Source: Clostridia bacterium (lineage in GTDB: Bacteria > Bacillota > Clostridia > Christensenellales > Aristaeellaceae). From it: a stretch of 42,493 bases of DNA. The position numbers and the translations under genes are program-made. The stretch spans positions 1-42,493 of the forward strand of contig JAFQIB010000024.1 in NCBI GenBank assembly GCA_017397765.1, read 5' to 3'. This document shows positions 4,775 through 42,493 of this stretch, piece after piece. A model generated the notes under the pieces. It did no database searches. It was not told the origin of the DNA and saw only the letters and a list, made by a program, of their open reading frames with translations. Position 1 is the first letter of the stretch, and each line of letters starts with the position of its first letter.

Positions 4775-5500
4775 ATGCCATCGCTTTCTCCCTATCGGTC
4801 CGATCTGGACTATGCCTATGCGCCGGGGATGTTCCCGGCAATGGAATGCCTGCTGCACCGGCCTGATCTGGCCCGGCGCGTGCTGCTGCATACCAAAGCT
4901 GCCGGAACGGAGGGCGCTCAGCGGCTGATTGAGCTGGCGGGCAAATGCCATGTCCGGGTGGAGGAAGCAGACCGGGCGCTGGGGCGCATTTCCGGCAAGG
5001 AAAACTGCTTTGCCGCGGCGGTCTTTGAGAAATTCGACGATCTCCTGGACGCCCAGAAGCCCCATGTGGTGCTGCACAATCCCTCGGACTGCGGCAATGT
5101 GGGCACGATCCTGCGCACCTCCCTGGGCTTCGGCGTGGAGGATGTGGCGCTGATCCGGCCCTGCGTGGACGTGTTTGATCCCCGGGTGGTGCGTGCCAGC
5201 ATGGGCAGCATGTTCCAGCTGCGCATCCATGTGTATGATACCTTCGACCAGTACCGGCTGGCGTATCCGGAGCATATGCTCTACCCCTTCATGCTGGACG
5301 GCTCGAAGTCCCTGCCGGACGTGCTGGCAGGGGAGGTACCGGCGCGCTGGTCGCTCATTTTCGGCAACGAGGGCAGCGGCCTTCCTGCGGAATTTGCAGC
5401 GATGGGACAGCCGGTCCGCATCCCCTCCAATGAGCGCATCGACTCCCTGAACCTCTCCATCGCAGCGGCGATCGGCGTCTATGGCTTTACCCGGAAATGA
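4775..5500 (+). CDS. TrmH/SpoU-family RNA 2'-O-methyltransferase
   Basis: SPOUT-class methyltransferase, predicted to use S-adenosylmethionine to methylate a ribose 2'-OH of tRNA or rRNA. The three family motifs are visible: motif 1 as NPSDCGNVGTILRT from residue 102, motif 2 as FGNEGSGLP (196-204), and motif 3 as IPSNERIDSLNLSIAAAIG near the C-terminus. The N-terminal 90 residues would be the substrate-binding part. The frame is open from an ATG at 4724 that overlaps the permease stop, but ATG 4775 has GGAGG 6 nt upstream and is preferred, giving 241 residues. The target nucleotide cannot be inferred. A composite hairpin repeat starts 29 nt after the stop and its first hairpin may end the transcript. 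Confidence 0.9.
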   Translation: MPSLSPYRSDLDYAYAPGMFPAMECLLHRPDLARRVLLHTKAAGTEGAQRLIELAGKCHVRVEEADRALGRISGKENCFAAAVFEKFDDLLDAQKPHVVLHNPSDCGNVGTILRTSLGFGVEDVALIRPCVDVFDPRVVRASMGSMFQLRIHVYDTFDQYRLAYPEHMLYPFMLDGSKSLPDVLAGEVPARWSLIFGNEGSGLPAEFAAMGQPVRIPSNERIDSLNLSIAAAIGVYGFTRK

Positions 5501-5528: not shown

Positions 5529-5810
5529 AGCAGCGAGCATCCGGATGATCCCGGATGCTCGTTTCAGACTGTCAAAAAACCTCCGGGAGGTGTCGGAGGG
5601 CCCGCAGGCCCTCTGACTGTCATCGTATCCGGGGGCTTTGCCGCCGGGGCGGGGCGTTTTCGGCTTTCAGCCGAAAACATTCCTTACACGGAGGAGCGGC
5701 TGGGAGGGCCTTTCAGACCCGACCAGCGACGGAGTGCAATCCTCGAAAAAGTGCCTAAAGCACTTTTTCGACACGCAGCAGCGAGCATCCGGATGATCCC
5801 GGATGCTCGC
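5529..5810 (+). repeat. Composite hairpin repeat, copy A
   Basis: Flanked by two identical 33-bp direct repeats (5529-5561 and 5777-5809), each of which is itself a hairpin (CGAGCATCCGG / CCGGATGCTCG). Inside are three more stems: GTCGGAGGGC / GCCCTCTGAC (5592-5617), GTTTTCGGCT / AGCCGAAAAC (5656-5678) followed by TTCCTTACACG, and TCGAAAAAGTGC / GCACTTTTTCGA (5743-5771). The same order of modules occurs inverted at 29041-29317 and begins again at 42423. Pairing is kept where bases differ between copies, which suggests a structured RNA or a hairpin-based mobile element. No ORF is shared between the copies. Confidence 0.85.
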
Positions 5811-5898
5811 TTTCATATGGCCCTGCAGGCCGCATGCCCCGGGAGGCCTCCTGCGCGGATGCAGAGGACGGATGCACAGAACATATCGGACAACACAA

Positions 5899-28895: not shown

Positions 28896-29040
28896 CTGCT
28901 GCAAAGCCTTTCTCCGGAGGGCGGGCGGTACGGCCAAGCGGTACCGGAAGCGGCGGGAAGCGGCGCAGACAATGCCCGGCCGCCGCTGATCTGACAGGCA
29001 GCCCGGCTCCTCTGCTGCGCAGATGCAGGCACAGAAACAA

Positions 29041-29317
29041 ACGAGCATCCGGCGTGTTGACCGGATGCTCGTCAGCGTATCGACAAAGTGCTATAGGCAC
29101 TTTGTCGAGGTTTTGCACTCACTCACTGGTCGAACGACAAGTCGTTCTCCCGGCCGTTCGTTCGTGTAAGGAAGCTTTTCCTAACGGAAAAGCGCGAAAA
29201 TCGCCGCGCATGTCGCCGATTTCCGATCTATAGTCAGAGGGCTTGCGAGCCCTCCGACACCTCCCGGGGTTTGTTGATGGTCTGAAGCGAGCATCCGGTA
29301 TTTCACCGGATGCTCGT
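29041..29317 (-). repeat. Composite hairpin repeat, copy B (inverted)
   Basis: Same modules as copy A but in minus orientation. Terminal hairpins CGAGCATCCGG/CCGGATGCTCG lie at 29042-29071 and 29288-29316. The stem TCGACAAAGTGC/GCACTTTGTCGA is at 29080-29108, where the fifth pair is C-G instead of the A-T of copy A. The TTCCTTACACG box and its preceding hairpin (GCTTTTCC/GGAAAAGC) fall within 29160-29193. The GTCGGAGGGC/GCCCTCTGAC stem is at about 29233-29258. Flanking sequence is unrelated to that of copy A. With the rest of 28896-29488 it forms a gene-free stretch. Confidence 0.85.
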
Positions 29318-41864: not shown

Positions 41865-42407
41865 ATGAAGAGCCTGAAGGGAACCAAGACCGAGCTGAAT
41901 CTGATGGAGGCCTTTGCCGGCGAGTCCATGGCCCGCAACAAGTACACCTATTTTGCCTCCAAGGCCAAGAAGGACGGCTACGTCCAGATTGCCGAGCTGT
42001 TTGAGACCACCGCCAACAATGAGAAGGAGCATGCCAAGATCTGGTTCAAGCTCCTGGAGGGCGGCAAGATCCAGGATACCGCCGTCAATCTGCTCCACGC
42101 CGCCGAGGGCGAGAACGCCGAGTGGACCGACATGTATGCCCGCATGGCGGAAGAAGCGGACGCCGAGGGCTTCCCGGAGATCGCCGCCAAGTTCCGCATG
42201 GTCGGCCAGATCGAGAAGGCCCATGAGGAGCGCTACCGCAAGCTGCTGCACAATGTGGAGACCGGCGTCGTCTTCTCCCGCGACGGCGACATGATCTGGG
42301 AATGCGGCAACTGCGGCCACATCGTCGTGGGCAAGAAGGCCCCCGAGATCTGCCCCGTGTGCGATCATCCCCAGTCCTACTTCGCCATCAAGGCGGAGAA
42401 CTACTGA
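41865..42407 (+). CDS. Rubrerythrin
   Basis: Peroxide-detoxifying diiron protein of anaerobes: reduces H2O2 to water with electrons from its rubredoxin-like domain. The 180 residues comprise a four-helix ferritin-like domain with E20, E53-x2-H56 and E117-x2-H120 among the iron ligands, then a C-terminal rubredoxin-type zinc-ribbon-like site C147-x2-C150 and C163-x2-C166. The N-terminus [20 protein letters not shown] is classic for the family. ATG has AAGGAGG 9-10 nt upstream. Monocistronic, with a strong terminator at 42423. Its presence supports an oxygen-sensitive anaerobe. Confidence 0.96.
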
Positions 42408-42422
42408 TTCCATTCTGAACCG

Positions 42423-42454
42423 TTTGAGCGCATTCCTCCGGGAATGCGCTCAAA
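42423..42454 (+). terminator. Intrinsic terminator of the rubrerythrin gene / first hairpin of repeat copy C
   Basis: TTTGAGCGCATTCC (42423-42436) pairs perfectly with GGAATGCGCTCAAA (42441-42454) over TCCG. It occupies the position held by the first terminal hairpin in copies A and B but has a different sequence. Confidence 0.8.
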
Positions 42455-42493
42455 CCATCAAGGAATCCGGGAGGTGTCGGAGGGCTCGCAGGC
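42455..42493 (+). repeat. Composite hairpin repeat, copy C (cut by window end)
   Basis: CCATCAA at 42455 followed by CCGGGAGGTGTCGGAGGGCT (42468-42487) and CGCAGGC matches the core of copies A (from 5584) and B (inverted, ending near 29274). Only the first inner stem is reached before the window ends. Confidence 0.8.

Follow-up and report, generated by a model that had tools for sequence, protein, structure and literature searches.

Analysis of the window, by which we mean the whole stretch of 42,493 nucleotides, identified three copies (A, B and C) of one element. Copy A follows a SpoU-type methylase gene (stop codon at 5500) and copy C a rubrerythrin gene (stop codon at 42407). The claim of the preliminary description that all copies sit just after gene ends is upheld by gene family for these two, and for copy B by open frames only.

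Anatomy of the window copies

Element copy A occupies 214 bp (5565-5778, plus strand) and runs from CAGACTGTC to GACACGCAG, as delimited by its target duplication together with an alignment of 25 copies. On its left lies a 34-nt terminator-like hairpin that follows the methylase gene (5531-5564, plus strand), and on its right a duplicated hairpin (5779-5812, plus strand) that is identical to the left one at 33 of 34 positions. Within the element, all on the plus strand, the left terminal inverted repeat (5565-5580; 16 of the first 20 bases are those of the left end of an insertion sequence described below) is followed by hairpin P1 (5592-5617), by hairpin P3 (5656-5678), which was placed from the alignment 5' of the TTCCTTACACG box, and by the box itself (5680-5690), whose CAC (5687-5689) pairs with a GTG (5734-5736). 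The arm P4 (5687-5736) contains inner blocks and is capped by a variable hairpin, and beyond it the 12-bp hairpin P5 (5743-5771) adjoins and overlaps the right terminal repeat. The alignment shows that P3 differs in sequence between subfamilies.

Copy B (212 bp, 29073-29284) lies on the minus strand between a left flank hairpin (29285-29317) and a right flank hairpin (29039-29072), both likewise on the minus strand, which have a stem in common and differ in their loops. Copy C (42451-42493, plus strand) ends at the contig end and has a start that is uncertain by a few bases; its left flank hairpin (42422-42455, plus strand, assigned by eye) follows the rubrerythrin gene and overlaps the element start with its last bases. 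The motif GGGAGGTGTCGGAGGGC occurs three times in the window, each time exactly with up to three mismatches permitted, and three occurrences were reached in none of 100 shuffles. The TTCCTTACACG box occurs twice, a count reached in 3 of 100 shuffles and weak evidence when taken alone. Copies A and B fold far below their shuffles (z of -9.7 and -10.7, respectively). The three window copies are real.

Copy number and duplicated terminator hairpins

The host genome, that of a gut bacterium, is a draft of 3.13 Mb in 158 contigs and is about 89% complete. A search of this genome with copy A and its flanks returned 75 matching pieces, and the strong ones besides copy A itself lay mostly in the middle of the query, indicating that the outer hairpins are largely unshared between copies. 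An exact core pattern was present 81 times in the host genome and at most 14 times in each of 99 relatives, with occurrences in 12 of these 100 genomes. Right ends numbered 82 and left ends 53 in the host genome, as compared to 2 with the control pattern in each case. Two-ended copies amounted to 57, with 48 in the host genome and 9 in other genomes (58 readings minus a second reading of the L164 copy; a TTCCTTACA-like box was required and contig-cut copies were left out). Measured copies were 203-385 bp long and contained no transposase gene. A covariance search, as suggested in the preliminary description, also recovered further copies: within the bacterial family a model of the core matched 13 of 120 genomes and 8 of 50 genera, with per-genome counts that are lower bounds and that reach at least 29 in the richest genomes. 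Relatives found by this model vary the TTCCTTACACG box itself. Many copies were carried by four relatives (G003, G007, G012 and G025), and G073, from a further genus, gave at least 25 model matches; of the three G073 loci shown, one has a perfect hairpin duplication, one (L262) a hairpin on the left side only, and one (L270) is cut.

To evaluate the flanks, we scored every left flank against the right flank of the same copy and against the right flanks of all other copies. Own pairs had a median score of 24 and mismatched pairs a mean of 6.1, and in 53 of the 57 copies the flanks scored beyond the 99th percentile for mismatched pairs, which is the target-site duplication of a miniature inverted-repeat element (MITE). 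The duplicated repeat was a hairpin of 17-38 nt in 51 of the 57 copies (44 in the host genome and 7 in others). Among these 51 repeats, 21 were perfect and the mean identity was 95.7%, and the repeat ended no more than 1 nt from the stem foot in 41 on the 5' side and in 43 on the 3' side. In two copies the repeat, of 12 nt in one and 16 nt in the other, was not a hairpin, and matching flanks were absent from 4 of the 57, one of which (L098) is cut by a contig end. The eight bases before the hairpin held on average 4.2 A and the eight bases after it 3.7 T (53 copies; window frequencies of 0.198 and 0.185), an A-rich and T-rich surrounding as at intrinsic terminators. Gene context, assigned with a crude GC3-based caller, was convergent at 20 of 53 sites, co-directional at 30, divergent at none and unclear at 3; hence placement beside at least one gene end extends to 50 of the 53 copies with enough flank. 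Element orientation at the co-directional sites (13 versus 17) demonstrated no clear bias.

The preliminary description counted the outer hairpins as parts of a hairpin-ended element. That the element owns its terminal hairpins and duplicates nothing could be argued from copies A and B, whose flanks both carry the stem GAGCATCCGG; this terminator stem (GAGCATCCGG/CCGGATGCTC) lies at 5535-5560, 5783-5808, 29043-29070 and 29289-29315 of the window. However, GAGCATCCGG recurs at 15 genomic places, where the loops differ, and in 53 of the 57 copies no right flank matches the left flank better than that of the same copy, which makes such ownership extremely improbable. The outer hairpins, those of copy A included, are instead the duplicated terminator of a host gene. 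Recurrence of the stem at 15 places also means that copy B could be a recombinant.

Sites lacking the element were sought in relatives. For copy A, a loose core search of 19 relatives' loci was negative, and this carries little weight because synteny is lost. Between pgk and tpi (gene families checked for L028 and L161) both filled and empty sites are present among relatives. Of 17 such loci within the genus, 7 contain the core and 3 contain remnants identified by eye. In G001 and G004 the element is absent and a single terminator of the same kind is present, G007 has a different hairpin and no core, G003 offers just 121 bases, and in G005, G012 and G014 the core was not found within 420 bases. 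It was also not found at any of 10 pgk-tpi loci outside the genus. The copies at pgk-tpi have no recognisable IS-type ends or second hairpin, and their hairpins differ in sequence with pairing kept.

The probable IS1182-type partner and cargo copies

An insertion sequence whose ends resemble those of the element was found once in the draft host genome (L216, 457-1949). It is 1493 bp long, encodes a 479-residue IS1182 transposase (NF033551 at 415 bits against a cut-off of 270, with PF13751, PF05598 and PF01609 over their cut-offs) and is bracketed by two copies of a terminator hairpin. Over 16 end bases, 11 or more match this partner in 50 of the 57 element copies on the left and in 47 on the right, a level that is attained at 16 (left) and 23 (right) of 42477 window positions. 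The matches range from 7 to 15 of 16 on the left and, more poorly, from 7 to 13 on the right, and four copies match the left end of the partner at 19 of 20 bases. The short length, the missing transposase and the IS-like inverted ends are those of a MITE.

A search of 12 genomes for IS1182-type transposases gave one match over cut-off in the host genome and one in G006, and a related transposase is present in 15 of 150 genomes searched (host genome counted). The four copy-rich relatives named above are not among these 15, so the mobiliser may be another element or may have been lost. An IS in another genus (G064), 55% identical and interrupted by one internal stop codon, has the same ends and a hairpin duplication. 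Among ten IS1182-type loci examined, the duplication was seen in these two (the partner and the G064 IS) and not in the other eight, some of which are cut by contig ends. An IS30-type partner was considered and rejected, since none of four PF13936 (HTH_38) matches in the genome, which is incomplete as stated above, exceeded the cut-off. TnpV was likewise rejected as mobiliser: together with a small ORF it lies beside element-like right ends (contigs C44 and C112) with unmatched flanks. At L144 (3678-4500) and L148, TnpV (PF14198) and a small ORF end in the right end of the element with no matching left flank.

Some copies carry genes. A 1715-bp copy in the host genome holds methyltransferase-like and GNAT-like genes inside the loop of the right hairpin and has one and the same terminator hairpin on both sides. 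A 1763-bp cargo copy in a related metagenome-assembled genome, 92.8% identical, lies at another terminator, so that the cargo form is found in two species. The two cargo proteins of L174 reached no NCBIfam cut-off among the matches listed. Separately, gene cassettes that resemble one another in their leaders and 3' stretches and are tied to the element or its targets were noticed at L150 (8040-9754), L174 (minus strand), L149 and L193, with contents of methyltransferase plus GNAT, a small membrane-type ORF or a short ORF judged by eye to be RidA-like. These may constitute a mobile cassette family of their own.

Taken together, the inverted ends, the target duplication, the many copies and the related IS suggest that the element is a non-autonomous MITE mobilised in trans by a DDE transposase of the IS1182 family. 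We assign this reading a probability of roughly 0.85, the mobilisation in trans itself being inferred. The non-autonomous mobile element of the preliminary description is thus supported, while its hairpin ends are not upheld.

Covariation, proposed mechanism and related systems

The body hairpins were evaluated in an alignment (A1) of 25 copies without large modules or cargo. RNAalifold predicted 45 pairs, 20 of them with change on both sides, and 97.8% of cells pair. Compensatory cells number 101, as compared to 30.1 (sd 5.1) in shuffled and at most 15 in slid alignments, and a tree places 33 double changes that keep pairing versus 0-3 when slid; the covariation anticipated from copies A and B is thus found in the larger set. 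The compensatory pair noted earlier in the 12-bp stem is real and general, being C-G in 14 and A-T in 11 of the 25 copies. A further measure, the number of further pair types, was not above shuffles (171 of 500 reach it). A second alignment (A2) of 36 segments was drawn nearly entirely from 44 found by a pattern containing TTCCTTACACG and CGGCYRGGAG. In A2 the TTCCTTACACG box and CGGCYGGGAG are near invariant, a conservation that is partly imposed because both are in the search pattern, and the block CGACCAGTG is almost invariant though absent from that pattern. The CAC/GTG closing stem, with arms about 50 nt apart, co-varies in three relatives' copies.

Several additional modules were observed. 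Two modules recur at hairpin tips (L012, L018, L021, L013 and L124): one resembles a three-way junction (GACTAGCG...GAGCRTAGCC) and is met at different tips, the other is a GAGCCCCTTCGGGGC module. An IS-like insert with ends like TTTTGTCAAGGGTGTTT is found in the P3 loop of certain copies and also adjoins stretches that carry genes (L145 from 2142, L080, and L150 near 7560 on the minus strand). In a viral contig, L191 (2640-2820) is a core copy without recognisable IS1182-type ends.

One explanation of the covariation is that the body functions as a structured RNA, either an sRNA or a cis-regulator, that was captured and spread by IS1182-type ends. The excess of compensatory cells and double changes agrees with this, as do the old copies between pgk and tpi, the retention of a P5 hairpin with other sequences in end-less copies (the viral one among them), and a slight excess of G-U over A-C (11 versus 3, pairs predicted from both strands) in one of two overlapping alignments. 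However, the other, larger set, whose pairs were likewise predicted on both strands, contains few G-U and few A-C cells (11 and 9, respectively, out of 999, 97% being Watson-Crick); pairs folded from one strand only favour the wobbles of that strand, as the method predicts. Also against an RNA are the lack of clear orientation bias and the terminator hairpin on each side of the element. Rfam gave no gathering-score match in the window, and below-threshold matches only for copy A and L124, so no Rfam family was accepted as the identity of the body. Of the undescribed structured RNA proposed in the preliminary description, the covariation and the absence from Rfam at gathering score hold, while the mismatches of the larger set and the orientations lean against an RNA, which we consider quite unlikely. 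The rarity of both G-U and A-C, together with the orientations, inclines us to a role at the DNA level.

The compensatory changes could also be mutational rather than selected, with template switching or gene conversion matching the arms and whole hairpins swapped between copies. The pgk-tpi copies of relatives differ by whole hairpins and yet stay paired, modules recur at different hairpin tips, and the mismatches of the larger set are without strand bias, all of which would be expected from such a process; the near invariance of CGACCAGTG outside the search pattern and the co-variation of the short, distant CAC/GTG arms would not. We regard this as a serious rival, if a somewhat unlikely one, and lean towards a DNA-level role of the body.

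A mechanism can be proposed in which the inverted ends, approximately CAGNNTGTCRAAAAA, are bound by the transposase, which finds its target, the palindrome of an intrinsic terminator, through structure and not sequence. Joining of the element ends would take place at both 5' feet of the stem-loop, and gap repair would then duplicate the whole hairpin. Both neighbouring genes would thereby keep a terminator, making insertion nearly neutral and allowing copies to accumulate. The body hairpins, kept paired by compensatory change, may act in cis at the DNA level in mobilisation or maintenance, and the loop of the right hairpin can hold cargo genes. A genus-spanning system of structure-guided transposition, in which terminators are read by shape and copied, the body is selected as DNA for use as a cis substrate and the right loop serves as a dock for cassettes, is a wider proposal that we hold to be rather doubtful. 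The terminator left on each side suggests how high copy number may be attained without gene breakage, and the same element would be a vehicle able to carry genes between species. These results also caution against taking covariation in mobile palindromic DNA as proof of a functional RNA.

Class C group II introns also insert at terminators. The present element differs from them in its inverted ends and duplicated hairpin, and the window has no gathering-score match in Rfam. IS1630 (IS30 family, Mycoplasma fermentans) duplicates inverted repeats, according to a title cited in PMC3317919; it is autonomous and has a transposase of another family, and the host genome has no HTH_38 match over cut-off. 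The element is not described in any title or abstract opening listed in searches of the literature outside subscription journals and ISfinder. IS1182-related MITEs of 159-169 bp have been reported as MITEPye1 in Paracoccus yeei and as ISMac2 MITEs in Methanosarcina acetivorans (PMC11578231, PMC3852290), and the portions of these reports consulted do not mention cargo, covariation or duplicated hairpins. For MITEPye1, the direct repeats span 4 bp and each chromosome carries 1-3 copies (PMC11578231). IS1272 and TnSha1 (IS1182 family, Staphylococcus) target hairpins with little common primary sequence, several of which are terminators confirmed by RNA-seq, and IS1272 deletes the stem-loop wholly or in part and does not duplicate its target (passages of PMC4923244 and PMC5678879). 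The family and the hairpin targets are the same here, but the whole stem-loop is duplicated and a hairpin stands on both sides in 51 of the 57 copies, unlike the loss described for IS1272. The legend of Fig 13 in PMC5678879 gives a hairpin-duplicating route as model pathway b, and this is the route to which some fifty natural insertions correspond, each with a whole terminator hairpin duplicated by an element with IS1182-type ends. IS1182-related MITEs and the hairpin targeting of IS1272 were already known; new here are the conserved hairpin body, the cargo and the duplication of entire hairpins at about fifty sites.
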